Below, piece after piece: positions 37,784-50,715 of a stretch of 64,000 bases of DNA. A model generated the notes under the pieces. That model saw only the letters and a program-made list of their open reading frames with translations, did no database searches and was not told the DNA's origin. The DNA comes from Gammaproteobacteria bacterium (GTDB taxonomy: Bacteria; Pseudomonadota; Gammaproteobacteria; Ga0077536): NCBI GenBank assembly GCA_021773835.1, contig JAJFJQ010000025.1, forward strand, positions 62,001 to 126,000, in the 5' to 3' direction. The translations under genes were made by a program, and so were the position numbers. How positions within the stretch are numbered: position 1 is the first letter of the stretch; the number at the start of each line of letters is the position of its first letter.

Positions 37784-37877
37784 AGCCGCTCTAATAGCCC
37801 CTAATGACGCTACTCTTGTGAGGTGATTCAAGGTAGTATAGCGGACACCTCGATCTAACAATAAGTTGCTGGTGGGG

Positions 37878-40424
37878 ATGAAACAGGCATTCTGGAAATC
37901 CGATTGGTTCGTCGGTCTCGCAATCTCGCTGGTATTTGTAGTCCTCTGGCTTAGCGGCAACGCTATCCTGGGCAGTCTCGAACGTGACGCCTACGACCTT
38001 GGCGTACGGATGTCTTCCGCCGATCCCGGCGACAGAATTGCAGTTATCGCGATCGATGATAGGAGTGTCCAAAACATTGGGCGCTGGCCTTGGTCGCGGG
38101 AAATCCACGCTCAGATGACCGATAAGCTTGTCGCCGGTGGCGCCAAGACGATCGGCAACACCATCCTGTATTCCGAACCCCAGGTAGATAAGGGTTTGGT
38201 CTGGATCCAGCGATTGCGCAGTCAATTGGCCAACGTCAACATGGCCCAGGCCGACGCAAATGACATCGCCAAGAATTTGGCGCTCGCGGAAAAAGAACTT
38301 AATACCGACGGCATCTTGGCGAATAGCCTCGGCAGTGGAAATAGCACAATCCTCGGGATGCAATTCGTGCCCGGCGACCCTATCGGCAATCCCGACTCCG
38401 AACTGCCCACGCACGTTACCCGTTTCCAGATCCCGGAATCGAATATCAGCGATCCGAATGGTGAGAATATTTCGCCATTGTTAACGATAGCCGCGGTACC
38501 ACCGATCGCGTCGATTGGTGGCGAAGCACAAGGCATTGGGCACCTGATCAATCTCCTCGACGTCGATGGCGGTGTCCGTTCAGAGCCCCTGGTCATCAGC
38601 TATTACGATAGTTTCTTTCCATCCCAATCATTGATGATTGCGGCGGCGAGTCTGAACCTCGGTGCCGAAGACATCAAAGTGACCCTAGGCGACAGCGTTG
38701 AACTTGGTCGTCTGAAAATCAAGACCGATCCAATCCTCTCGATCAATACGTTCTTCTACGGCGAACGCGAGGGTGGCAGGCCGGCTTTCGATACCTACTC
38801 CTTCTACGATGTTATTCAGGACGAGGTCCCAATCGAGAATTTCAAGGATAAGATCGTATTGATTGGGGCAACGGCATTTGGCGTCGGTTCCGCGCTACAT
38901 ACGCCTATCGGCGACGTTGGTGGGCCGGTGCTCATCATGGCGCACACCGTAGCGAGCATCTTGAACGAACATTTCTTTGTGCAACCAAGTTGGGCTGGCC
39001 TCGCCGAACTATTGGCGATCCTCCTGATCGCCGCATACTTAGTCGCACTACTACCGAAACTCAAAGCTGGCCCCGGCGCATTAATCAGCGCATTTTTGCT
39101 CATCGCGCTGATTGTGACCGAACTATCGATCATGGTGTCGCAAGGCATGTGGTTGCAACTCATGACGGCGGCGTCGCTATTAGTGATCGGGCATATATTG
39201 CTGACCACCAAACGCTACCTCGTCACAGAAGCCAGCAAACAGCGCCTCGACGTCGATTCCGCCATGAACAACAAGCAGCTCGCCCTGCAACACCAACAAA
39301 AAGGCGAGCTCGATATGGCATTCGACTACTTCCGCCGTTGTCCAGCCGATGAATCGACCTTGGAAGCAATCTACAACCTAGCAATCGATTTCGAAACGAA
39401 ACGAAAATTCAACAAAGCCGCAGCGGTCTATCAGTACATCGCCGATAAGAACCCGGACTTCAAGGACATCAAGGTCAAGGTCAATCGCGCCAAGCAACTC
39501 GAGGAAACGGTACTACTGGGCGGTGGCGGCGCTTCGAGTGCGGCAGCTGGAACGCTCTTGTTGGACGGTTCAATCTCCAAACCGATGCTAGGTCGTTACG
39601 AGGTCGAAAAAGAGCTTGGCAAAGGCGCGATGGGTGTTGTCTATCTCGGCAAGGATCCCAAAATCAATCGGATCGTGGCCATTAAAACAATGGCGCTTGC
39701 CCAAGAGTTTGAAGCCGACGAACTCGAAGAGGTCAAATCACGCTTCTTTCGTGAAGCTGAAACCGCAGGAAGGCTCCAGCATCCGAATATTGTCACCGTG
39801 TACGACGCCGGCGAAGAGCACGACCTCGCCTATATCGCAATGGAGTTTCTTGAAGGCCACGACCTAGCACGCTACGTCAAGGCAGATAGCTTGCTGCCGC
39901 TACCAATCGTCATGGGAATTGTCTTTAAGTCCGCGATGGCACTAGATTCGGCACATAAGCAAAACGTCGTACACCGTGACATCAAGCCCGCAAACATTAT
40001 GTACGAGCCCAATAAGAAACAGGTGAAAATAACGGATTTCGGCATCGCGCGGATCACCGACTCGAGTAAAACCAAGACCGGCATGGTGCTCGGTACGCCT
40101 TCGTACATGTCTCCAGAGCAATTATCCGGAAAGAAAGTAGATGGACGCTCAGATCTATTTTCACTAGGGGTGATGCTGTATCAAATGACCACGGGTAACT
40201 TGCCGTTCAAGGGCGATTCGATGGCGACGTTGATGTATAAGATTGCCAATGAACCGCACCAGGATATTTTCGAGCTACGTCCTGATTTACAGCAGCAGAA
40301 GCCCTGCATCGCCGCCATAATCGACAAAGCCTTGCAGAAAGACATCAATAAACGCTACCAAACAGGCGCAGAAATGGCGAAAGATATCCAAGAATGCGCG
40401 AAACAGGTTGCAAACAAGAAGTAG
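37878..40424 (+). CDS. CHASE2-TPR Ser/Thr protein kinase
   Basis: An 848-residue membrane sensor kinase. A first helix (residues about 8-28) leads to an extracytoplasmic CHASE2 domain (about 35-355, with RIAVIAIDDRSVQNIGRWPWSRE and DKIVLIGATAFGVG). Three helices (about 370-445) follow, then a short TPR-like region (FDYFRRCPADESTLEAIYNLA and FNKAAAVYQYIADKNPDF), then a Hanks-type kinase (574 to about 838). The kinase has a glycine loop GKGAMGVVY, VAIK lysine 603, HRD 699-701, DFG aspartate 720 and GTPSYMSPEQ, so it should be active. PP2C and FHA genes follow. ATG 37878 is chosen; TTG 37866 would add four residues. Confidence 0.9.
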   Translation: MKQAFWKSDWFVGLAISLVFVVLWLSGNAILGSLERDAYDLGVRMSSADPGDRIAVIAIDDRSVQNIGRWPWSREIHAQMTDKLVAGGAKTIGNTILYSEPQVDKGLVWIQRLRSQLANVNMAQADANDIAKNLALAEKELNTDGILANSLGSGNSTILGMQFVPGDPIGNPDSELPTHVTRFQIPESNISDPNGENISPLLTIAAVPPIASIGGEAQGIGHLINLLDVDGGVRSEPLVISYYDSFFPSQSLMIAAASLNLGAEDIKVTLGDSVELGRLKIKTDPILSINTFFYGEREGGRPAFDTYSFYDVIQDEVPIENFKDKIVLIGATAFGVGSALHTPIGDVGGPVLIMAHTVASILNEHFFVQPSWAGLAELLAILLIAAYLVALLPKLKAGPGALISAFLLIALIVTELSIMVSQGMWLQLMTAASLLVIGHILLTTKRYLVTEASKQRLDVDSAMNNKQLALQHQQKGELDMAFDYFRRCPADESTLEAIYNLAIDFETKRKFNKAAAVYQYIADKNPDFKDIKVKVNRAKQLEETVLLGGGGASSAAAGTLLLDGSISKPMLGRYEVEKELGKGAMGVVYLGKDPKINRIVAIKTMALAQEFEADELEEVKSRFFREAETAGRLQHPNIVTVYDAGEEHDLAYIAMEFLEGHDLARYVKADSLLPLPIVMGIVFKSAMALDSAHKQNVVHRDIKPANIMYEPNKKQVKITDFGIARITDSSKTKTGMVLGTPSYMSPEQLSGKKVDGRSDLFSLGVMLYQMTTGNLPFKGDSMATLMYKIANEPHQDIFELRPDLQQQKPCIAAIIDKALQKDINKRYQTGAEMAKDIQECAKQVANKK

Positions 40425-40612
40425 CCTATAACGATGCTGCTCACTTCCCGTAACGACGACCGCGAATACGCAATAAATACTTTGCGAGCCGGATGGCGCG
40501 GTCGAATTCGGTCGCACGCCGCCGATCGGTTGGATAACTCCTTTTTGTTCGAAACCGACGCGTAACTGCCGGCTCCCGCGCAGACCAGACGCCAGCACAG
40601 AATCTCACGACC

Positions 40613-41446
40613 GTGGATCTCTCCTCCAAGATTGAGCTCGTAAACGTCTCCGATACGGGTATGAAGCGACCGCATAATGAAGACTCGGCCATAACAGACC
40701 CCACCATGGGTCTAGCTGTGGTGGCCGACGGTATGGGCGGCTATAAGGCAGGCGAAGTTGCCAGCGCCATCGCGGCTAAGGCGATACTTGATGCGGTGCG
40801 TGACGAGCTGTACACGGCGCACAAGGGCCCGCGTGAGGCCGATACCGACCTCTCAGCAGAGGCTGTGCTGGTGCGCGACTCAATTGTCGACGCGAATCGG
40901 CACATTTTCCGCACCGCCACGGACGTACCACAGTGCCACGGCATGGGAACCACGGTTGTTGTGGTGCTTTTTTACAACAATATGGTTACCATCGCGCATG
41001 TTGGAGATTCTCGCGTCTATAGACTGCGCAATGGCGACCTCGCGCAGATCACGAGCGACCACTCACTGGTCCAGGAACTCATCGATCGGGGGTTTTTCAC
41101 CCCAGAAGAAGCCGAAGCCAACACACCCAAAAATTTGGTCACTCGAGCCCTTGGAATTGATGAAAAAGTCGACGTCGATGTGCAACAGCATGCAGCCAAA
41201 TCGGGCGATATCTACCTCCTGTGCTCAGACGGATTGAATGATATGGTAGATGATGAAGAAATTCGCTTAACCCTAAGTAAATATAGTGGTAATCTTGTAG
41301 AAGCGGCGCACGAATTAGTGCGACTTGCCAACGAAAGTGGTGGAAAAGACAATATCTCGGTAGTCCTCGCGCGACCGCGAGCACCGTTCCCGGCCCAGGC
41401 TGGGATTTTTTCCAAGCTCGTGGGTTTATTGAAGAGAGGCAGCTGA
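40613..41446 (+). CDS. PP2C-family Ser/Thr protein phosphatase
   Basis: A 277-residue Stp-type metal-dependent phosphatase. Metal-binding motifs are all present: RPHNEDS near 20, VVADGMGGY near 40, TTVVVVLF, AHVGDSRVYRL, SDGLNDMV and GGKDNISVVLA. Residues after 255 are a short tail. Such phosphatases reverse phosphorylation by the Hanks kinase encoded just upstream and act in the cytosol. The start is GTG at 40613. The gap to the kinase is 188 bp and to the FHA gene 13 bp. Confidence 0.93.
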   Translation: MDLSSKIELVNVSDTGMKRPHNEDSAITDPTMGLAVVADGMGGYKAGEVASAIAAKAILDAVRDELYTAHKGPREADTDLSAEAVLVRDSIVDANRHIFRTATDVPQCHGMGTTVVVVLFYNNMVTIAHVGDSRVYRLRNGDLAQITSDHSLVQELIDRGFFTPEEAEANTPKNLVTRALGIDEKVDVDVQQHAAKSGDIYLLCSDGLNDMVDDEEIRLTLSKYSGNLVEAAHELVRLANESGGKDNISVVLARPRAPFPAQAGIFSKLVGLLKRGS

Positions 41447-41459
41447 ATAAGGCGAAACG

Positions 41460-42191
41460 ATGGCTAAACTGGTTCTCAGCTTAAATGGCGTAGTTCAGGG
41501 AGAGTATCCGCTGAACAAGGAGCGTATATCTCTCGGGCGCAAACCCGATAATGATATACAGGTGGACAATCTGGCGGTTAGCGGTAAGCACGCGCTGGTT
41601 ATCACGATCCTCGATGATTCCTTCTTGGAAGATCTCGGCAGTACGAACGGCACCTACGTCAACGGTAAATTAATCAAAAAGCACGCATTACGCGATGGCG
41701 ACGTAGTCGGTATCGGTAAACACGAGCTCAAGTACGTCAATGAGCACGCGACTGCGGATGATGAAGATTTCGAGAAGACGATGATCATCCGCCCAGGTTC
41801 CGCAAGTGCAGCGGTGGCTGCGGCCAAAGCAGCGGAGGAGGCAGGGGTTGAAGCAGAAGCCGCTGCCGGTAACGCGACCCAAGGCGGGACGCCGGCCCCC
41901 GTCGCGTCGGGTATGCCGCTCGGTAAACTTCAGGTACTAAATGGCCCGATCGCCGGCAAGGAGCTGGAACTGACCAAGGCGCTCATTACGCTGGGCAAGC
42001 CTGGCGTCCAAGTTGCAGTGATCTCAAGAAGGCCGCAGGGCTACTTCCTGACGCATATCGAAGGTGACGGACAGAACAATAATTTTCCAGTGGTCAATGG
42101 CACAGCCATTGGCCCACAAGCGTATACGATGGAGAATGGCGACATCGTTGAACTCGCAGGCATTAAGATGGAATTTAGTCTCAGCGAATAA
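41460..42191 (+). CDS. FHA-domain protein
   Basis: A 243-residue protein. The N-terminal FHA domain (1-95) has ISLGRKPDNDIQVDNLAVSGKHALV and DLGSTNGTYVNG, with the canonical Arg, Ser, His and Asn positions intact, so pThr binding is likely. An Ala/Glu-rich linker (110-145) follows. Residues about 155-243 (KLQVLNGPIAGKELEL ... ITLGKPG ... FPVVNGTAI) resemble a second, degenerate FHA domain lacking the key residues. It is the natural reader of phosphorylation by the CHASE2 kinase. It is 13 bp after the phosphatase gene and ends convergently with the cyclase gene. Confidence 0.9.
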   Translation: MAKLVLSLNGVVQGEYPLNKERISLGRKPDNDIQVDNLAVSGKHALVITILDDSFLEDLGSTNGTYVNGKLIKKHALRDGDVVGIGKHELKYVNEHATADDEDFEKTMIIRPGSASAAVAAAKAAEEAGVEAEAAAGNATQGGTPAPVASGMPLGKLQVLNGPIAGKELELTKALITLGKPGVQVAVISRRPQGYFLTHIEGDGQNNNFPVVNGTAIGPQAYTMENGDIVELAGIKMEFSLSE

Positions 42192-42196
42192 GCACC

Positions 42197-42215
42197 GGCG
42201 CTTTTTTGTAGCGCC
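42197..42215. terminator. Weak bidirectional stem-loop between FHA and cyclase genes
   Basis: GGCGC and GCGCC pair over a 9-nt loop that is itself T-rich. It lies 6 bp after the FHA stop, between convergent genes. T-rich sequence follows on plus (CTTTTATATC). A low-strength terminator is plausible. Confidence 0.35.
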
Positions 42216-42273
42216 CGCTTTTATATCTCTAACGATAAACCGATATCACCCAAGCTACACCCACAGACCACCC

Positions 42274-44520
42274 CTACTTCGACGTGTGGGTGAACACCCC
42301 ATCCCAATCGGGCTCAGGTGGATGCGCGCGATACTGCGCAACCCGTTCGACGTAGACCTTGTACAAGCCAGGCGAGCGCGAGGTCCGTTGCAGATTCAAC
42401 AAGTTCATCTCAGCCGTATCCCATTCCTGCGCGCGATATAGCCGAAGCGCTTCGCGGTAGAGCTTCAGTTCATCCTTCCAATGCTTGTCGATATCTTCAG
42501 CCAAACATAGTGGTTGGTATATGACAACGGGCTTATCCTTGCCCTTGACCCTGACCCGGTCGATCTCCCGGTACGCGTATTCAGGGACGGCATCTTTTGT
42601 GCTTTCGCTGACGATCAACCAAACACCGTAGCCTTTAGTGAGGCCCTCAAGCCTCGATCCGAGATTTACCGCATCACCGAGAACGGTATAGGCCATACGG
42701 AATTCGGATCCCATATTGCCGACACTCATCATGCCAGAGTTAATACCAATGCCAATTTGGATCTCCGGCCAACCGCGGGCAACAAATTGTTTATTAACTT
42801 CGTTTAAGCGCTCCAACATTTGCATGCCGGCGTCTAGTGCATGGCGCGCGTGATCATGGTCCTCAATCGGCGCACCCCAAAACGCCATGATGGCGTCGCC
42901 CATATATTTATCGATTGTGCCGCGCTGCTCATGAATGATCCGGGTCATCGGCGTCAAAAATTGATTCATCAACTCCGCTAATTCTTTTGGACTCAGACCT
43001 TCAGATAACGTCGTAAAGCCGCGGACATCGGAGAACATGACGGTCAAATCCCGGCTTTCCGCTTCAAGGGAATAATCCATCGGGTGGTCTGCCATTTCAT
43101 CGACAAGTTCCGGCGGAATGTACTGACCGAATAAGCCTGTGATTTGCCGTTTGCCGCGGGTTTCAATGAAATAGCCGTATGACATATTAAGCATGAACAT
43201 CGTCAACAGCATCATCACGCCGGACGCGACAGGCAATACGAAATTTGCCCCGCTCCAAACGAGTAAATTAAACCCGGCGTACAGCAATAGGAGGCCGGCG
43301 GTGACGATCGTGGCTGCGAGTGGGCTTAGAATCGGAACGACAATTGCCATGACCAATCCAAACACGATCAATAACAATACCTCGGCGCCCAGTGTATATG
43401 CCGGAAGTTGCTTGACGGTCCCGTCAATCATCCCGCTGATCAGGTTTGCGTGTATTTCGACCCCTGGATAGGATTCGGCGACCGGTGTCGAGCGCAAATC
43501 GAGTAAGCCAGGTGCCGTCGTACCAACCAAAACTGTTGCACCCTTTAGGATTGATTTATCTGCCGCGCCGTGTAGCACGTCGGTGGCGGAGACGTAGGGG
43601 AAGCTGCCCTTCTCGCCTCGGTACGGCACCAAGGTCCTGACATGTTTGTCGACCGGAACAAGCTTATCGCCGACTTGCAACCATTCGAGCCCCGGATACC
43701 CTTTACCGCCAAACAGCGGTTTCTCGAATCGCGGCTTGATTTCATGCGAACCGAGAAGGTGCCGTACCATTTCTAGCGAAAGCGAAGCGTGAACCGCACC
43801 CTCATATTGAATTAGCATCGGCACCCGGCGGATCACGCCGTCCGGGTCGGTGTCCGGATTAAAGTGCCCGGCACCAAGTGCGCTAGACTGCAGCTGAGCA
43901 ATATTCGCACCGTAACCGTGCGCATCCTGAAATTCGATCCTTTTCCCTTTGAACGCACCTTTAACAAATGTTGGCGCTGGCAACTGGCCGATTTTGGCAG
44001 CGACCTGACCGGGGAGAACAAAGTTGAAGTAGTAACCCAGGATCACCGGATATTTTTGGATCGTCTCGGCGAAGCGCCCGTCGTAATCTAGTTCCGGGCG
44101 CAGTACCTGAAGTTGCGCTCTGAACATTGCATTGCTCTTTAAATCCTCGGCAGCAAGTCGTTCCAAGACTTTCAACCCGGAGCTGTCGTCAGGTTCGGCA
44201 AACACAATATCAAAGCCGACAATGGCAATTTCATATTCCTCGAATAATAGCTCGACGAATTGCGACAGCTTGTCTCTGCCCCAGGGCCATTGGCCTTCCG
44301 CGGTGAGGCTCGCTTCGTCGATGTCGATGATCACGATTCGATCGTCGACGGTTTTCGGCATGGTCCAAAGCAAGCGCTTGTCATAAGCGATATTTTCCAT
44401 CTGGTCGATAAAACCGATGCGGAGCCACTCGGCCGCGTGGCCTACGAAAAAAAGCAACACGACAAAGCTCAGCCCGATACGGATGCTGTTATCTTTTATT
44501 TTGTCGATGATTGCTGACAT
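42274..44520 (-). CDS. CHASE2-domain adenylate/guanylate cyclase
   Basis: A 748-residue membrane class III cyclase. One helix (residues about 15-35) leads to a CHASE2 domain (about 38-350, RIVIIDIDEASLTAEGQWPWGRD and ATVLVGTTAPGLLDLR). Three helices (about 370-440) and the catalytic domain (about 480-660) follow. DLTVMFSDVRGFTTLSE and GTIDKYMGDAIMAFWGAP give the two metal aspartates, and the lysine in IDKYMGD fits ATP. VLGDAVNLGSRLE follows. A C-terminal part of about 80 residues is helical. Architecture matches the kinase at 37.9 kb with a different output. No cAMP receptor gene is in the window. Confidence 0.9.
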   Translation of the reverse strand: MSAIIDKIKDNSIRIGLSFVVLLFFVGHAAEWLRIGFIDQMENIAYDKRLLWTMPKTVDDRIVIIDIDEASLTAEGQWPWGRDKLSQFVELLFEEYEIAIVGFDIVFAEPDDSSGLKVLERLAAEDLKSNAMFRAQLQVLRPELDYDGRFAETIQKYPVILGYYFNFVLPGQVAAKIGQLPAPTFVKGAFKGKRIEFQDAHGYGANIAQLQSSALGAGHFNPDTDPDGVIRRVPMLIQYEGAVHASLSLEMVRHLLGSHEIKPRFEKPLFGGKGYPGLEWLQVGDKLVPVDKHVRTLVPYRGEKGSFPYVSATDVLHGAADKSILKGATVLVGTTAPGLLDLRSTPVAESYPGVEIHANLISGMIDGTVKQLPAYTLGAEVLLLIVFGLVMAIVVPILSPLAATIVTAGLLLLYAGFNLLVWSGANFVLPVASGVMMLLTMFMLNMSYGYFIETRGKRQITGLFGQYIPPELVDEMADHPMDYSLEAESRDLTVMFSDVRGFTTLSEGLSPKELAELMNQFLTPMTRIIHEQRGTIDKYMGDAIMAFWGAPIEDHDHARHALDAGMQMLERLNEVNKQFVARGWPEIQIGIGINSGMMSVGNMGSEFRMAYTVLGDAVNLGSRLEGLTKGYGVWLIVSESTKDAVPEYAYREIDRVRVKGKDKPVVIYQPLCLAEDIDKHWKDELKLYREALRLYRAQEWDTAEMNLLNLQRTSRSPGLYKVYVERVAQYRAHPPEPDWDGVFTHTSK

Positions 44521-44676: not shown

Positions 44677-45315
44677 TTATCGTTGTAGGGCCGCGCCGGC
44701 ATCTGCGGTGAAACGCTCAAAAATTACACCGACGGCATCTGACATGGCTACCGCGACGGCGCTCATGTCGTTACCAGAAACTGATCGTGACTCGCGATAC
44801 TCCTTACCAAATACGAATGACTTACCGGCATTTCGTTCTACTAATTCCAACGCGAAGGCTACGACGACGCCGGCCCCATCCGCCGCCAATACATGGTCCA
44901 TGCGGCGAATTTGGGCTTGAATTTCGAAACCCGCGCTACTCATATCGGAGCTGGATATTGCCGGGGCCACGTTAGCAGCGCGCAAATAGCTGACGAGTTC
45001 CGTTTGCAGCATACGCTCAGGGCTATCGATCCACAGATGGTACCGATGTTGTTTAACAACAACTTGGTCCGTTTCGGTATAAGCGATTGCACGCTCGCGA
45101 TGGACCCCGCTACCGCGAAATTTCGCGACGCGCACCATGTCGTCCGTCCAGGATGTCGTAATGGAGTTTGTGGGTGTTGGTGGGCCAATTTTAAGACGAT
45201 AAAACGTATCGCTTGGCAGCGGTTTCATAGACCCACAGCCACCGACGCTGACTAGAATCAACGCGACGATGATAACTGCGGCGATGCGCGCGCAAGATCT
45301 AGTCTGCTGCATCAT
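44677..45315 (-). CDS. ABC-type transport auxiliary lipoprotein (PqiC/LetA-partner type)
   Basis: A 212-residue lipoprotein of the ABC-type transport auxiliary component family (PqiC-like). The signal peptide ends in VGGC. DTFYRLKIG follows, typical of the family N-terminus, and FRGSGVHRERAIAYTETDQVVVKQHRYHLWIDSP is the conserved core. Members sit at the outer membrane and work with MCE proteins. It is the last gene of the transporter set, overlapping mlaD by 17 bp. This replaces the MlaB-MlaC pair at the end of E. coli mla. Confidence 0.85.
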   Translation of the reverse strand: MMQQTRSCARIAAVIIVALILVSVGGCGSMKPLPSDTFYRLKIGPPTPTNSITTSWTDDMVRVAKFRGSGVHRERAIAYTETDQVVVKQHRYHLWIDSPERMLQTELVSYLRAANVAPAISSSDMSSAGFEIQAQIRRMDHVLAADGAGVVVAFALELVERNAGKSFVFGKEYRESRSVSGNDMSAVAVAMSDAVGVIFERFTADAGAALQR

Positions 45316-46306
45316 GTGGCTCCGATCCGCGGATAAGACGAGCTGGGTTGTCCCTCACAGATTGACTAAATTCATGCAACTGCCGAGTGCTGCCCTCGAC
45401 GTTATACATTATCGTGGCGACGTGTTCGTTGACCGTTGTCAATGCCTCGAGCGCTTGTTGCATTGCAGAGTTCGCATTGCGAATGGTGCTGGCGACCTTT
45501 TCGTCGTTCGCCGAAGCCAAATTCTTTAGCGCCGCTAGTGTTTCGCCCATTTGCGTGCGTGTGCCTTCAATGCGAGAAATTAGCTCATTTAAATTGAGCG
45601 CAACATCATCAATATGGACGAGAAATTTCTCTATCTGTTGTTGATTCGCACTCCCAAGTATTTTCTCAAGTTGTTGAGCGCTGTTATCGAGTTTCGCAAT
45701 CAATGCTTGCGCATCACCGATGAGATCTTCGTTGACGCGTTGATTAAGTGTTTCTACCAACGGACTAAGTTGTTTTCGCTGAAAGTGGAGGATCTCTGCC
45801 GATATTTCATCGATTCGGGTATTCAAGTTCTTCAGCACGGGCATTACACCGTCCTCAGACAAAGCGCCGAATTCCCCTGCAACATCGCCGAGAACTGCGA
45901 ATAGATTCAGTTGCTCACGACCTTCGAGTTCACCACCCGGCGCGAGGCTTTTTGAGCTCTTACCTTCGCTTATTTCGATCTGAACGGCTGAAATCAGCCC
46001 AGACGACATGATGTTGGCAATGCTGTCTTCTGGGATCTTCCACTCGCGCTTGATGCTTAAGGTTAGGATATATTCCATTCCAGTGGACGCTGGGGCAGGT
46101 ACAATCTCCTCGATTTGGCCCACCCGATAGCCTTCATAGAAAACGCCCGTACCGAATTTCAATCCACTAACATTTTTGTAGCGAACGAAATAATGTTCTG
46201 CCGGACCCGTTCTTCCGGTCACGAAATACATGAGCGTAAAAAACATGGCAAACATAATCAGCACAAATGTGCCGACGACGAGGTAGTTAATATTATCTCG
46301 CTTCAC
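45299..46306 (-). CDS. mlaD: MCE/MlaD-family lipid-binding protein
   Basis: A 335-residue protein. An N-terminal membrane helix (NYLVVGTFVLIMFAMFFTLMYFV) is followed by an MCE domain (VRYKNVSGLKFGTGVFYEGYRVGQIEEI to ISAVQIEISEG, residues about 38-125). The remaining 200 residues are long coiled-coil helices (NLNELISRIEGTRTQMGETLAALKNL). MCE proteins form hexameric rings that carry lipid across the periplasm, and the helices may form a needle-like tube. E. coli MlaD has about 180 residues, so this is a PqiB-like or Pseudomonas-like long form. It follows mlaF after 98 bp. Confidence 0.9.
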   Translation of the reverse strand: MKRDNINYLVVGTFVLIMFAMFFTLMYFVTGRTGPAEHYFVRYKNVSGLKFGTGVFYEGYRVGQIEEIVPAPASTGMEYILTLSIKREWKIPEDSIANIMSSGLISAVQIEISEGKSSKSLAPGGELEGREQLNLFAVLGDVAGEFGALSEDGVMPVLKNLNTRIDEISAEILHFQRKQLSPLVETLNQRVNEDLIGDAQALIAKLDNSAQQLEKILGSANQQQIEKFLVHIDDVALNLNELISRIEGTRTQMGETLAALKNLASANDEKVASTIRNANSAMQQALEALTTVNEHVATIMYNVEGSTRQLHEFSQSVRDNPARLIRGSEPHDAAD

Positions 46307-46404
46307 TGGTAGGTAGTACCTGTCGACACAAAGGCGATCGGTACTCTCACAGCAACTGCGTGGCTATCGGCCAATTTAACGTTCCCCCTCTCCAAATACT
46401 GCAT

Positions 46405-47199
46405 TTAAGTTTCGCCGGTTAGCCGATCCATATATTCGTCGGCGTTGATTTGGTCGTGGCGCGACCGACGATTTAGTAGATCTTGTACGCGCGCGATACT
46501 GGAATTCTTCACCTCCGAGACGCTTCCAGTAAGCAGAATTTTGCCATGATCTAGCACCGTGATGCGATCTGCAATTTTAAACGCACTTTCCAGTTCATGG
46601 GTGACCACTACAATGGTCATCTTCATTGAATCACGCAGTTTTAAGATCAGATCGTCGAGCTCCGAGGCCGCCACCGGATCAAGTCCTGCTGAGGGCTCGT
46701 CAAAAAATAACATCTTCGGGTCCATCACGATTGCTCGTGCTAAGGCCGCCCGTTTGATCATCCCTCCCGAGAGCTGAGACGGCATTAAATCTTCAAAACC
46801 GCCAAGATTCACGACCTCTAACTTCATCCGCGCCATTATTCCCATGGTGGATTCATCTAGCTTGGTGTGCTCGCGAAGTGGCAATTGGATGTTTTCACCT
46901 ACCGTCATAGAACTTATCAAAGCGCCGCCCTGGAACGATACACCCATGTTTGTCCGGAGATCATGCATCTCCGTGGGGCTAACCTTCGTGATGTCCTTGC
47001 CCAGTAACTTGATGCTCCCGCTGGTCGGCGTATGTAAGCCGAGTAAATGGCGTAGTAACGTACTCTTCCCGGATCCGCTGCCGCCCATGATGATCATTAT
47101 TTCACCAGGGTTTATCGCCAAGTTAATCTGATCAAGGATCTTGACAGGCCCGTAGTGGGTAACGAGATCTTCAACTTGAATGGCAAAATCGGTATTCAA
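46405..47199 (-). CDS. mlaF: Lipid ABC transporter ATPase MlaF
   Basis: This is the ATPase of the MCE transporter. Walker A GGSGSGKST (39-47), the Q-loop, the LSGGMIKRAALARAI signature and Walker B MLFFDEPSAGLDP are all present. The LSGGM variant with a following lysine is usual for MlaF-type ATPases. The length of 264 residues is normal. The C-terminal tail (HDQINADEYMDRL) may contact STAS or the membrane protein. It starts 6 bp after mlaE. Confidence 0.95.
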   Translation of the reverse strand: MNTDFAIQVEDLVTHYGPVKILDQINLAINPGEIMIIMGGSGSGKSTLLRHLLGLHTPTSGSIKLLGKDITKVSPTEMHDLRTNMGVSFQGGALISSMTVGENIQLPLREHTKLDESTMGIMARMKLEVVNLGGFEDLMPSQLSGGMIKRAALARAIVMDPKMLFFDEPSAGLDPVAASELDDLILKLRDSMKMTIVVVTHELESAFKIADRITVLDHGKILLTGSVSEVKNSSIARVQDLLNRRSRHDQINADEYMDRLTGET

Positions 47200-47205
47200 T
47201 TCAGC

Positions 47206-48018
47206 TCACCGATTTAGGAAATACGTAAATGTCATGTCGGCCAAAACTATATAGGAGATCGCCAGCACAACCGCCCTCGTTGTGGCACGACCGACGCCTT
47301 CGGCGCCACCGGAAACGGAGAACCCATTACTGACGCCAATAAGGGTGATGATGACGGCGAACACCATACTCTTCAATAAACCTTGCATCACATCATTCGC
47401 TGTAATGAATGCAGTGCCCTGATCCCAATAGGCGACATAGCCAAGACCAAGGCCGGCGTTGCAGTACACCGCGCCGCCAAGCATGGCGGCTAAATCCGAG
47501 AACAATGTTATTGCCGGCATCATAACCAGCATGGCAAGCAGAACGGGTGAGACGAGATAACGTACCGGATTGATTCCCATCACCCTTAATGCATCGATTT
47601 CCTGGTTCACTTGCATCGTGCCGACCCTGGCCGCGAGTGCAGAACCGGTGCGCCCGGCGACTAAAATACCTGTTATCAACGGCCCGAACTCCCGTGTCAC
47701 CGAAAGTGCGATCCCAAGTACAACTTGAGTTTCTGCGCCGAATTGCTTTAGCGTGTGGACCCCTTGGATTGCGAGCATTACCCCGATTGCGAATGACAAT
47801 ACGAACACGATAGGGAGCGCCGCGATACCAACTTCAACCATCTGTGAGACGGCTGCGGCAAATCGGACAGGTTGACGCTTGAACGGACCAGCGACCACCC
47901 AATAAAAACTTTCATAGACTAACGCGAGGTAATACCCGAACTCTGAAACAAACGCTACGACAACCCGCCCTAGATTTTCGACCGAATTGCGTATCCGCTC
48001 GTCATCTACATCAGCCAT
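47206..48018 (-). CDS. mlaE: Lipid ABC transporter permease MlaE
   Basis: This is the inner-membrane permease of the MCE transporter. About five membrane helices are visible, with the MlaE hallmark FGPLITGILVAGRTGSALAARVGTMQVNQEIDALRVMGINP in the middle. The length of 270 residues is standard. The start overlaps the STAS gene by 8 bp, so the two are made together. The N-terminal 25 residues (DDERIRNSVENLGRVVVAFVSEFG) form the usual amphipathic helix. Confidence 0.95.
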   Translation of the reverse strand: MADVDDERIRNSVENLGRVVVAFVSEFGYYLALVYESFYWVVAGPFKRQPVRFAAAVSQMVEVGIAALPIVFVLSFAIGVMLAIQGVHTLKQFGAETQVVLGIALSVTREFGPLITGILVAGRTGSALAARVGTMQVNQEIDALRVMGINPVRYLVSPVLLAMLVMMPAITLFSDLAAMLGGAVYCNAGLGLGYVAYWDQGTAFITANDVMQGLLKSMVFAVIITLIGVSNGFSVSGGAEGVGRATTRAVVLAISYIVLADMTFTYFLNR

Positions 48019-48343
48019 CCCGTTTTAGGCACTCTTCGATGTCTGCATAAATCGGAAAGACTTTGTCCAACCGTGCTAATTCAAGCACGCTCATTGCAGG
48101 ACCGCTCACACCAATGAGTCCAAATTCCAAATTTTTCTTTTTTGCGGTCTGATACCCTTCGACCAGGCTGGCAACCCCAGAACTATCGATGTACGACACG
48201 TCGGACAAGTTCACCAGTGTATTTTGCGATGAATTTAAGCAGTCCAAAATCGTTTTACGCGCGTCCGGAGAACACGACAAATCCACGTCCCCGGTCAACA
48301 GCACTATCGCGAATCCCCTATCTTGTTGTACTTCGTATGCCAT
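48011..48343 (-). CDS. STAS-domain protein (anti-anti-sigma / MlaB type)
   Basis: A 110-residue STAS protein. VNLSDVSYIDSSGVASLVEG gives the conserved D53-S54-S55-G56 of anti-anti-sigma factors, with a serine that can be phosphorylated. The STAS subunit MlaB of E. coli binds MlaF and is needed for transport. This protein stands before mlaE, with an 8-bp overlap. In standard MlaB the serine is often absent; here it is present, and genes for an RsbW-like kinase and an RsbU-like phosphatase lie just upstream. It may be a switchable regulator of the transporter or a sigma-pathway protein (inference). Confidence 0.85.
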   Translation of the reverse strand: MAYEVQQDRGFAIVLLTGDVDLSCSPDARKTILDCLNSSQNTLVNLSDVSYIDSSGVASLVEGYQTAKKKNLEFGLIGVSGPAMSVLELARLDKVFPIYADIEECLKRDG

Positions 48344-48541
48344 GCTCTTCGTCCCGTATTTAATCGTTAATCTAATTCGGTGATCCGGACTTTGGCTTTA
48401 TCCCCCGCCCATGCAATCTATATGTCGGTCGACGGCCAGAATCCCTGAATCTTCGCTTATCCAAACAGTCCCATCAATCTCATAGTTTCTAAAAGATTTA
48501 TGAACTAGCGTAAGCCTATCCAACCGTCGGAAATCAGTTTT

Positions 48542-48958
48542 TTAGTTGATCTTTTTCCGCATCTTTAAATAATTCCCGGCCATATTTTCGAGATGTCCGT
48601 AAGTACAATCGTCCATTATCTCCTGAATAAAATACGTACCCAATCCGCCGGGCTTTACGTCTTCGATGTCACGTGGTCGGATCCCGTCTGGGTCGATGGG
48701 AGCGGCAAAATCGGTCAGTACGACTTGTACGTCGCCGTCCTCCTTTTGCATCTCCAGCAGGATTTCGCCCGACTTTTCGCCTTTATAGGCGTGCTGCATG
48801 ATATTCATGCACGCCTCGTTGATTGCGATAACGAGATCAGAAATCAATTTTTTAGAGCACCCAAACTCTTCGGCAATTTCCTGAACCCGCTCCCTAACCA
48901 TGCGGAGCTTCTTCGGATCTGAATTGAAGCGGAGTTCAAGCATCGTCGGCTCAGACAT
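48542..48958 (-). CDS. RsbW-type serine kinase / anti-sigma factor
   Basis: A 138-residue protein of the HATPase_c_2 family. The N-box is INEACMNIMQHAY (about 46-58), and the G-box region includes KPGGLGTYFIQEIMDD. Proteins of this family phosphorylate a STAS partner on serine. The next gene on the strand, 198 bp away, encodes a STAS protein with that serine. The ATG overlaps the phosphatase stop by 8 bp. No sigma factor gene is near, so the target may be the STAS protein alone. Confidence 0.9.
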   Translation of the reverse strand: MSEPTMLELRFNSDPKKLRMVRERVQEIAEEFGCSKKLISDLVIAINEACMNIMQHAYKGEKSGEILLEMQKEDGDVQVVLTDFAAPIDPDGIRPRDIEDVKPGGLGTYFIQEIMDDCTYGHLENMAGNYLKMRKKIN

Positions 48959-50234
48959 GTGCTTTCGTCTCGATTAGTAATAACGTTAAGTCGTCGTGTA
49001 CGGTGCGTTCCTGATCGCGGATCTGCGTCACGATCTCTTCAAGCCTTTGTTCGGAGTCGAAGGTAGATTGCTCATCAATTATCTTGCAAAGTCCCTCTAC
49101 CCCAAGCTCACTACCGTCCGGCGCGACACTCTCTGTAACACCGTCGGTAAAAATGTATAAGCTCCCATCGCCAAGTTCGATTCTGGTCGTCTCAAACTGA
49201 ATGTCCGATAAAATTCCGATCGGCGGCGCTGTTGCCGGCAGTTCCTCAAAAGTCGAATTTTCCCTCCAGAAAACCGGAGGCTGGTGACCGGCATTAGAAA
49301 GCTCTACGACGCCGGTCTTCGGATAAATAAATCCCGCCACAATGGTAACAAACATCCCCATCGATGCCGTTTCACATATTTCCAAATTCACCTGATCCAA
49401 AAGTTCGGCGGGACCCTGCGCCGTTTTCGCGAGACATCGTAAAAGGCTAGTTGTTTTAGCCATTAGCAAAGCCGCGTTCATACCCTTTCCCGATACGTCT
49501 GCAAGACTGAAATAGATCCGTCCACCGGCAACTTCGCAATAGTCAAAAAAATCGCCGGATACTTCTCGCGCAGGAATATTAAGACCATGGATCGGAAAGC
49601 TCGCCGGTGAGGCCGGGGGCAACAAGCTAAGCTGAATTTGGCGTGCCAACTCCAGTTCCTTACGAACGCGCTCTTGTTCAACCAGCGCTTGCGCCATCCG
49701 CGCGTTGTGAATGGCAAGCGCCGCGGCGGCCGCTACCGCAGTCGCGAGATGCATATCGCTTGCAGCGAACAAGCGATCTCCGCTGCGTTTATTAATGAGT
49801 TCTAGTGCACCAATGCATTGACCGCGAACAGTCAAAGGCGCACACATAATTGAACGTGTAATAAACCCAGTATCCGCGTCGACGGCCCCCGCGAAATTTT
49901 CATTCTTGGAAACATCGCGCACAATTTGCGCTGCATTTTGGCTTACGGTTTCACCCACGATCCCTTGGTCAGGCGCCAACCGCAAGCCGGTCACGTCAAC
50001 CGGTCCGGCGCACTTGCGACAGATCAATGCGGCCCCGTCTTCTTCGACTAAAAAGATCGACGCCGCTTCGGCGTTGAGGTAGACAATTATTTGGTCGATC
50101 GCGTTCTGTAACGTTTCTTCGACATTGAGAGAACTGGCGAATTCATGCGTCACATCCGCAAGCAAACCGGCAAGGCCTTCCGGTGTCGTTGGTGTTCCCT
50201 GAAATAGGGGGTCAATTGCAGCGTCGTTGCTCAT
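48951..50234 (-). CDS. GAF-PP2C (RsbU/SpoIIE-type) phosphatase
   Basis: A 427-residue cytosolic sensor phosphatase. The GAF domain (about 20-180) includes AASIFLVEEDGAALICRK and SIMCAPLTVRGQCIGALELINK. A short linker helix leads to a SpoIIE-type PP2C domain (about 205-425) with GDFFDYCEV, LADVSGKGMNAALLMA, SNAGHQPP and LYIFTDGVTE. Such proteins dephosphorylate STAS partners and so oppose RsbW kinases. The ATG at 50234 gives a 4-bp overlap with the DUF1841 stop. The GAF ligand cannot be told from sequence. Confidence 0.92.
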   Translation of the reverse strand: MSNDAAIDPLFQGTPTTPEGLAGLLADVTHEFASSLNVEETLQNAIDQIIVYLNAEAASIFLVEEDGAALICRKCAGPVDVTGLRLAPDQGIVGETVSQNAAQIVRDVSKNENFAGAVDADTGFITRSIMCAPLTVRGQCIGALELINKRSGDRLFAASDMHLATAVAAAAALAIHNARMAQALVEQERVRKELELARQIQLSLLPPASPASFPIHGLNIPAREVSGDFFDYCEVAGGRIYFSLADVSGKGMNAALLMAKTTSLLRCLAKTAQGPAELLDQVNLEICETASMGMFVTIVAGFIYPKTGVVELSNAGHQPPVFWRENSTFEELPATAPPIGILSDIQFETTRIELGDGSLYIFTDGVTESVAPDGSELGVEGLCKIIDEQSTFDSEQRLEEIVTQIRDQERTVHDDLTLLLIETKAHV

Positions 50235-50659
50235 GCTAGCTGCATCAGACAAGCCATGTAGGCGACCTCATCGGGCGGGGTTGAATCCCGTTGCGATTGC
50301 CACAAACTAGCGGCAAGACAATCCATCATTTTGTGCTCTATCACGTGGGCGTCAAAACGGCGTTTTTCGACTATCGTATTGTACGCTTTAACGACGCCGG
50401 GCGGTCGATCTGTTTGTAATTGCTCGCAAATAGCAACATGGAGACTCATATGTAGAAATGGATTGGTTTGGCCCGATTCGGGAGTAAATTCGGCCGCCAA
50501 GGCCTGCTCAGGTTGATCCAGCAGGGCATGATACTCAGTGTGGCGCGAGATTACGTCGGCAAGGATGAGTTCCATTGGCTGCAGCGGTACCTTGGCCGCC
50601 ATTTTTTGCCAAACGTCAAGGAAATGACTGCGCACCTCATCTCGTGATTGCGAAAACAT
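50231..50659 (-). CDS. DUF1841 family protein
   Basis: A 142-residue protein beginning MFSQSRDEVRSHFLDVWQK, the family N-terminus. It also has the core HPFLHMSLH-like segment (NPFLHMSLHVAICEQ) and the helical VIEHKMMDCLAASLWQSQRD. Function is unknown. In Pseudomonas and relatives DUF1841 genes follow nth, as here. Two upstream in-frame starts, at 50674 (TTG) and 50668 (ATG), are possible, but ATG 50659 gives the usual start. It is followed directly by the phosphatase gene. Confidence 0.88.
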   Translation of the reverse strand: MFSQSRDEVRSHFLDVWQKMAAKVPLQPMELILADVISRHTEYHALLDQPEQALAAEFTPESGQTNPFLHMSLHVAICEQLQTDRPPGVVKAYNTIVEKRRFDAHVIEHKMMDCLAASLWQSQRDSTPPDEVAYMACLMQLA

Positions 50660-50715
50660 AATGCTCATCAACAATCGAAGTTATAAATCCACTGACGCCG
50701 GACGCGAGGCCAGCC

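Follow-up and report, generated by a model that had tools for sequence, protein, structure and literature searches.

Partner switches of the Bacillus type, such as RsbU-RsbV-RsbW and SpoIIE-SpoIIAA-SpoIIAB, combine a SpoIIE-type phosphatase, a HATPase serine kinase and a STAS protein carrying a DSSG serine. Gram-negative switches with outputs other than sigma factors are also established, among them Pseudomonas HptB/HsbA, Bordetella Btr and Vibrio Syp, and in these the phosphorylation state of the STAS protein decides which partner is bound; to our knowledge, none of them acts on an ATP-binding cassette (ABC) transporter. The present work concerns a gene cluster in which a switch of this kind, usually known as a control on gene expression, is joined to the genes of a MlaE/MlaF-type ABC transporter, an ATP-driven pump for lipids between the two membranes. 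The cluster lies in a stretch of 64,000 nucleotides (nt) from a Gammaproteobacteria bacterium (assembly GCA_021773835.1, contig JAJFJQ010000025.1, positions 62,001 to 126,000), referred to below as the window, in which positions are counted from the first letter.

The STAS protein of the Escherichia coli Mla transporter, MlaB, is required for MlaF to stay with MlaE (PMC5016091, PMC7367683; papers are cited here and below for the available parts of their text). Thr52 of MlaB is central in the MlaF interface, where T52E weakens binding in pull-downs (PMC7367683) and T52A binds MlaF yet is non-functional (PMC5016091, PMC7367683). On the other side, Tyr261, Leu265 and Leu266 of MlaF pack between the two proteins (PMC7367683). 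Control of MlaB by phosphorylation was proposed in 2016 and 2020 with no kinase named (PMC5016091, PMC7367683), and the regulation of the level of active MlaB was an open question in 2020 (PMC7367683). STAS genes near gammaproteobacterial mce operons, and STAS-fused permeases, were described by Casali and Riley in 2007 (PMC1810536), in whose available main text the word 'phosphatase' occurs 0 times.

All cluster elements that an earlier, sequence-only reading of this DNA had named were found in place, on the minus strand between 44677 and 50252. Its account of RsbU- and RsbW-type genes before a STAS gene that overlaps mlaE of a lipid ABC transporter held; it had left out a PqiC-like lipoprotein gene at 44677-45315. 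Its suggestion that phosphorylation of the STAS protein switches the transporter is favoured by a linkage that withstands rearrangement, by co-occurrence with Mla operons lacking mlaB, and by the invariance of Ser54 of the STAS protein and of the docking residues of MlaF. Judged from these sequence comparisons, the cluster probably encodes a partner switch in which one STAS protein is common to RsbW and MlaF and gates lipid transport. The features of the cluster, followed by the flanking gene, are:

48951-50252, minus strand, RsbU-type phosphatase with Pfam GAF (42-182) and SpoIIE PP2C (243-429) domains, PF07228 E 3.7e-42
48542-48958, minus strand, RsbW-type serine kinase, HATPase_c_2, PF13581 E 1.9e-28
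48344-48541, minus strand, gap of 198 nt between rsbW and the STAS gene, longer than in nearly all relatives
48011-48343, minus strand, RsbV-like STAS protein, proposed MlaB equivalent and phospho-switch, E 2e-15, motif YIDSSG
48182-48184, minus strand, codon of Ser54, the first Ser of DSSG and proposed phospho-acceptor
47206-48018, minus strand, MlaE-family permease (Pfam PF02405, NCBIfam), 8-nt overlap with the STAS gene
46405-47199, minus strand, MlaF-family ATPase with a C-terminal extension, PF00005
45299-46306, minus strand, long MlaD of 335 amino acids (aa), MCE domain and extended C-terminus, PF02470
44677-45315, minus strand, ABC_trans_aux lipoprotein (PqiC/MpcA-like), PF03886, 29.4 bits with a cut-off of 26
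50231-50674, minus strand, DUF1841 gene (Pfam), flank, probably outside the switch

Overlaps between rsbU and rsbW (8 nt), the STAS gene and mlaE (8 nt), and mlaD and the lipoprotein gene (17 nt) suggest coupled expression; mlaF and mlaD are 98 nt apart. Among relatives, the median distance from the rsbW stop codon to the STAS domain is 18 nt (137 loci), and the 198-nt gap of the window possibly holds an internal promoter. The rsbU start given above is a TTG at 50252; the ATG at 50234 is the one used in the sequence-only reading.

Conservation was analysed in a scan of named genomes, from which the best 80 of 164 confirmed loci were taken, all from metagenome-assembled genomes (MAGs) except that of the cultured Methylohalomonas lacus (L115), and in a class sample of 369 evenly drawn genomes, with E <= 1e-15 defining a match and E <= 1e-30 a strong match; named loci and class genomes overlap (e.g. 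L102, G142), so the sets are not independent. Most named loci with a stated group belong to Gammaproteobacteria or to families therein. Five MAG records are titled Klebsiella pneumoniae (L075, L094, L104, L118, L121); their loci are window-like and the labels look wrong. Among 40 relatives, the own genome counted, the kinase was matched in 20. A STAS gene follows rsbW in 79 of the 80 named loci, and 59 have mlaE or mlaD in the vicinity. RsbW matches were present in 64 of the 369 class genomes at 67 places, all of which were read with their surroundings (the own one being the window), and 59 genomes from 33 families gave strong matches. In 53 of these 59, mlaE, mlaD or mlaF lies no more than about 5.5 kb from rsbW, in most cases right after the STAS gene. 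None of the eight weak or secondary matches (L204-L211; five in weak genomes, three at secondary places) has a Mla gene nearby, which suggests that linkage to Mla is not a general property of RsbW-type genes. That switch and transporter are chance neighbours was considered and rejected in view of the 53 of 59 strong genomes and the several gene orders.

Gene order was tallied for 66 class loci (REARRANGEMENTS). The window order, STAS-MlaE-MlaF-long MlaD-lipoprotein (PF03886-like after the long MlaD), was found in 36, and with an extra MlaE behind it in two more (L160, L161). Three have STAS-MlaF-MlaE-short MlaD, an order seen in L174, L184, L196, L130 and L216; four have STAS-MlaE-short MlaD with mlaF nearby on the other strand (L193, L198, L201, L202; 438-454 bits); and three have STAS-MlaF only (L190, L191, L194). 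The remainder are four loci that have fewer genes or are truncated by a contig end, six with STAS alone and eight with RsbW alone. The MlaF-only loci indicate that the switch can accompany just the ATPase, the component to which a MlaB would attach; in the corresponding genomes (G046, G193, G328), mlaE-mlaD of the o-type described below stands elsewhere without an adjoining mlaF (L280, L285, L283). At L218, from another class, the order is MlaE-x-MlaD-TPR-RsbW-STAS-UbiD, with a DSAG motif in the STAS protein and no mlaF detected at the locus. L222 resembles L218 and has two unnamed genes (215 and 327 aa) without a Pfam match. A second MlaE and a short MlaD were seen behind the lipoprotein gene in L134 (= L160) and L161, and about 2.5 kb further in L146.

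MlaE operons sort into four types: E. coli-like (c-type), STAS-fused, window-type and o-type. The own genome has two MlaE genes, one in the window and one on contig C53 in an o-type operon of the order mlaF-mlaE-mlaD-mlaC, without mlaB. A second MlaC-like gene lies convergent behind the C53 operon (G000, L062:3769-7401). Among the classified genes of 17 genomes, Pfam STAS_2 was found near mlaE in none of nine o-type compared with eight of ten c-type operons; a non-fused, unclassified MlaE (G017, C259) with a weak STAS_2 match nearby was left out of this count. Absence of mlaB was established by STAS_2 for the nine o-type operons, and for the others by weaker in-house STAS/MlaB profiles, which miss some c-type mlaB genes that STAS_2 finds (L264, L270).

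Matches to an o-type MlaD profile in the class sample were sharply bimodal, with 27 genomes at or above 214 bits and the next match at 153 bits. Taking the RsbW and o-type MlaD searches as covering the same 369 genomes, the switch is present in 25 of these 27 compared with 64 of 369 overall (Fisher p 2.7e-19, kinship ignored), and in 14 of the 15 families with an o-type MlaD. A STAS gene occurs in the stretch of four of the 27 o-type loci, in each case that of the switch itself, next to RsbW; the profiles found none in the remaining 23. Six strong genomes lack Mla genes near the switch (G018, G142, G207, G364, G067, G209), two of them with a contig end close behind it (G207, G209), and five of the six carry an o-type operon elsewhere, without mlaB. 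The sixth, G018, has a c-type mlaFEDC operon with a Crp-family gene on the other strand in place of mlaB; G023 is similar, with a monooxygenase-like gene in that place. Both by adjacency and by co-occurrence, the linkage of switch and transporter is beyond chance.

The MlaE permease, MlaF ATPase and MCE protein stand in one operon, all over the cut-offs of PF02405, PF00005 and PF02470, and MlaE also exceeds that of TIGR00056 (233.9 bits, cut-off 212.2). None of the cluster's proteins reaches the NCBIfam equivalog cut-offs for MlaF, MlaE, MlaD or MlaB, and no MlaC gene lies between 44677 and 50252. Together, the missed equivalogs, the long MlaD, the missing MlaC and the PqiC-like lipoprotein mark this as a transporter other than the Mla of E. 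coli. It shares with E. coli MlaFEDB (which works with MlaC and MlaA) the MlaE permease, the docking C-terminal extension of MlaF, an MCE protein and a STAS protein expected on MlaF. It differs in that the STAS gene lies before mlaE and after the kinase and phosphatase genes, and in that the STAS protein is RsbV-like, 110 aa long, with DSSG and a C-terminal helix, whereas the fifth strand and last helix present in SpoIIAA are absent from E. coli MlaB (PMC7367683). In composition, a long MCE protein and a PqiC-like lipoprotein with MlaE/MlaF, it matches Brucella Mpc (MpcEFDA; PMC12436622), which likewise has STAS and no MlaC. In Mpc, however, STAS forms an N-terminal fusion with the permease, whereas in the window STAS and MlaE are separate overlapping genes and the free STAS follows RsbU-RsbW. 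The string 'phosphorylat' is absent from the available main text of the Mpc paper (PMC12436622).

Tyr256 and Leu260 of the window MlaF align with Tyr261 and Leu265 of E. coli MlaF (98 of 264 columns identical between the two proteins). The pair is present in all 90 rows that reach these positions, one of them the C53 MlaF; one more row was too short. At the third contact, E. coli Leu266, 83 of the 90 rows have Thr. In the MlaF tree, a branch with support 96/96 separates the switch-linked and o-type sequences (57 of 78 rows) from the rest; the c-type (100/100) and the STAS-fused sequences (95/80; seven fused systems) lie apart from them.

The three switch proteins have the sequence features of a partner switch: a SpoIIE-type PP2C phosphatase, a HATPase_c_2 kinase and a STAS protein with a D-S-S/A-G serine. 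Unlike the RsbU/RsbV/RsbW systems of Bacillus, the window has no sigma factor gene with the kinase or nearby, and the predicted output is an ABC ATPase. The closest solved relative of the kinase is Bacillus subtilis RsbW (6m36), and residues E48, N52, D83, G105 and G107 are invariant in 19 of 19 rows; the NCBIfam RsbW equivalog cut-off was missed (67.5 versus 145 bits). The STAS protein exceeds the cut-off of TIGR00377 ant_ant_sig (67.2 bits, cut-off 53.45) and falls short of that of the mlaB_1 equivalog (25 versus 90 bits). Its AlphaFold2 model, built from 29 sequences, has a predicted local distance difference test score of 87.9, a C-terminal helix at 102-109 and a helix at 54-69 that begins with Ser54. 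Foldseek ranked RsbV of an RsbV/RsbW complex first for this model (E 2.9e-9); a chain of 94 residues from E. coli MlaFEB, which is presumably MlaB, came 46th (E 2.2e-4). The STAS protein is nearer RsbV than MlaB in both sequence and fold, and is proposed, from its sequence, as a functional analogue of MlaB rather than a demonstrated orthologue.

Ser54, the motif counterpart of Thr52 in E. coli MlaB, is kept in all 130 distinct STAS sequences (162 STAS in all). Ser55 was rejected as the acceptor, being Ala in eight of the 130, whereas Ser54 never varies. No STAS position clearly separated the groups with and without an adjacent transporter, in part because many of the 'unlinked' genomes keep an o-type transporter, and no natural fusion of STAS with MlaF or RsbW was seen among the named and class loci read. 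The RsbU proteins of ten relatives comprise six HDOD-SpoIIE, two GAF-SpoIIE (one fused to a kinase domain), one receiver-SpoIIE and one without a named input domain; a varying sensor on a constant core is as expected for a signalling module and would fit one here. RsbU-RsbW fusions were found in nine of the 80 named loci (L084, L086, L094, L103, L105, L113, L117, L142, L145) and in 16 of the 66 class loci. In the own genome as a whole, one HATPase_c_2 match has an RsbW-like score (99 bits); the eight others are at or below 29.6 bits, in frames of 257 to 1667 aa, and no second stand-alone kinase of the RsbW type has a comparable score. Besides the switch gene, STAS was matched by three frames of 534 to 611 aa and by one 198-aa protein on contig C47, the only other small free STAS, flanked by genes for a methyl-accepting chemotaxis protein and CheR. 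Nine SpoIIE matches make the phosphatase partner less unique.

On this basis, and on the E. coli data on the need for MlaB, the Thr52 interface, T52E and T52A, the STAS protein would have two roles, regulating MlaF as a subunit of the MlaB type and acting as the RsbV-type component of a partner switch with RsbW and RsbU. Without a phosphate, STAS would sit on MlaF, through the helical subdomain and a C-terminal 'handshake', and so promote transporter assembly and ATP hydrolysis. RsbW would compete for the same helical face of STAS and phosphorylate Ser54, upon which STAS would leave MlaF and lipid transport would stop. RsbU, under the control of its input domain (in the window GAF, in some relatives HDOD or receiver), would dephosphorylate STAS and turn transport on again. 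The same STAS protein probably also works in trans on further MlaF proteins that the cell has from this clade, for example that of the mlaB-less mlaFEDC operon on C53.

Several observations weigh against this proposal. Synteny in other genomes, which the sequence-only reading had named as a check, spoke for transporter linkage in the 53 strong class genomes and against it in 21 of the 80 named loci, which have no mlaE or mlaD nearby; the contrary case it had foreseen, RsbU-RsbW standing without the transporter, thus occurs in part. Of these 21 loci, one retains mlaF, one runs into a contig end and one lacks STAS. MlaE was examined in 19 of the 21 genomes: a mlaB-less Mla operon stands elsewhere in 12 (ten o-type, two c-type) and is lacking in five, and two were left unassigned. 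At L092 and L142 the mlaB status was not seen. G006, G008, G014, G020 and the L116 genome keep RsbW-STAS, and the only Mla operons found in them are mlaB-bearing c-type or STAS-fused ones; the L117 genome is probably alike, with its own mlaB or fused STAS and two partial, unclassified MlaE matches. The STAS proteins of genomes without a mlaB-less Mla keep Ser54 too, so the serine argues for the kinase and not for MlaF as the target, and its conservation was rejected as proof of that target. The Tyr/Leu pair likewise occurs in E. coli MlaF, and the comparison was confined to MlaF families with STAS. Conversely, two class genomes with an o-type MlaD, G257 (100% complete) and G032 (75%), have no RsbW match at 1e-15. 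In a phylum sample, 15 of 398 genomes matched, and mlaE or mlaD was near at eight of the 13 new loci and not at five. One of the five, G661, has only one MlaE gene; MlaF comes after it, and no STAS was found in the region inspected (L278). An RsbU neighbour of RsbW is missing at 11 of the 80 named and six of the 66 class loci, some of which have the transporter adjacent (L080/L155, L148/L176, L059); G006, G014, G020, L116, G018 and G364 likewise show RsbW without it. In G006, G014, G020 and L116 the absence could be a sign of decay or of retargeting. RsbU loss was considered as an indicator of transporter loss and serves as one only in part, because some transporter-linked loci also have no RsbU next to RsbW. 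The tie between switch and transporter is thus not strict, and neither is that between RsbW and an adjacent RsbU.

The most serious alternative applies to the lineages without a mlaB-less transporter, in which the switch may have moved to, or always had, another target, such as the products of CHASE2-cyclase or FHA/PP2C/Ser-Thr protein kinase genes. It fits six loci (L092, L104, L114, L116, L118, L122) at which the switch precedes a CHASE2-cyclase gene without Mla genes; the L114 genome, however, still has an o-type operon, and RsbU is not beside RsbW in the other five, for which decay fits as well as retargeting. We regard it as somewhat unlikely even there, and, the window itself having the transporter, it is compatible with a shared STAS in the window. 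Rather less likely is a STAS protein that acts on MlaF with another polarity, phospho-STAS being active or phosphorylation tuning catalysis rather than binding. E. coli T52A, bound yet inactive, raises this option, since a group at that site may be needed for activity and the site may act on catalysis and not on binding alone, a further point against the proposed scheme; set against it, T52E lowers MlaF binding in pull-downs, and phosphorylation disrupts partner binding in SpoIIAA, RsbR and RsbS (PMC7367683). A classical switch on transcription or another cytoplasmic target, with the transporter as an output or co-regulated neighbour and STAS off MlaF, would suit the several lineages that keep the switch without the transporter, beside FHA, PP2C and CHASE2-cyclase genes. 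It appears improbable given the mla-specific linkage in several orders, including mlaF without its permease, the co-occurrence with mlaB-less operons and the kept MlaF docking residues. As the sequence-only reading had said of the window, a sigma gene is also missing: with E. coli RpoS and FliA as phmmer queries (E <= 1e-3), none of 8,273 open reading frames from 172 partly redundant loci including the window was matched, although the genomes beyond these loci were not searched. In the same database the two queries detect each other at about 1e-10. Equally improbable, in our view, is a dedicated structural MlaB, with RsbU and RsbW acting on another STAS protein or merely sharing the operon. 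The need for MlaB in E. coli, the lack of evidence for its phosphorylation in 2020 (PMC7367683) and the 198-nt gap before the STAS gene would accord with it, but STAS follows RsbW in 79 of 80 named loci even where no transporter comes after, the genome's only other small free STAS sits among chemotaxis genes, and the protein is closer to RsbV than to MlaB.

More tentatively, the proposed phosphorylation-gated STAS-MlaF motor may be a shared module that drives two kinds of envelope lipid transporter within one cell, a tunnel type, in which a PqiC-like lipoprotein joins a long MlaD, and a shuttle type, in which MlaC joins a short MlaD; we consider this possible, with the odds slightly against it. 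Hints in this direction are that no examined o-type operon has its own mlaB, that the L134/L160 and L161 clusters hold two MlaE/MlaD pairs with one MlaF and one STAS, and that L190, L191 and L194 keep mlaF with the switch and an o-type permease elsewhere. If true, one kinase/phosphatase pair would set the total lipid flux between the membranes.

Upstream of the switch, the stop codon of the DUF1841 gene overlaps the rsbU ATG by 4 nt (ATGA), and DUF1841 adjoins the switch only in those relative lineages that also have Nth. On the other side of the transporter, at 37866-44520, lie genes for a CHASE2-Ser/Thr kinase, a PP2C phosphatase, an FHA protein and a CHASE2-cyclase (the cyclase identified by Pfam, the rest by eye). 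These CHASE2/PP2C/FHA neighbours remain beside the switch in many relatives, even in those without the transporter there.

The author of the sequence-only reading had not known this type of control to be described. Phospho-control of the Mla STAS protein is in fact in print (PMC5016091, PMC7367683); what was not found in print is the kinase/phosphatase pair. No literature joining RsbW/RsbU with Mla, and no single paper with RsbW, MlaE and MlaF together, was found in the sources available, which covered few subscription journals and no preprints. In the available main text of a partner-switch review (PMC8256260), MlaB, ABC and lipid occur 0 times. In the cultured Methylohalomonas lacus (L115), and in the 33 families with strong matches in the class sample, the clusters offer candidates for the kinase, the phosphatase and the acceptor serine. 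If the proposal is true, the question of how MlaB is regulated would become testable with purified proteins, and partner switching would reach the direct post-translational gating of an ABC lipid transporter.

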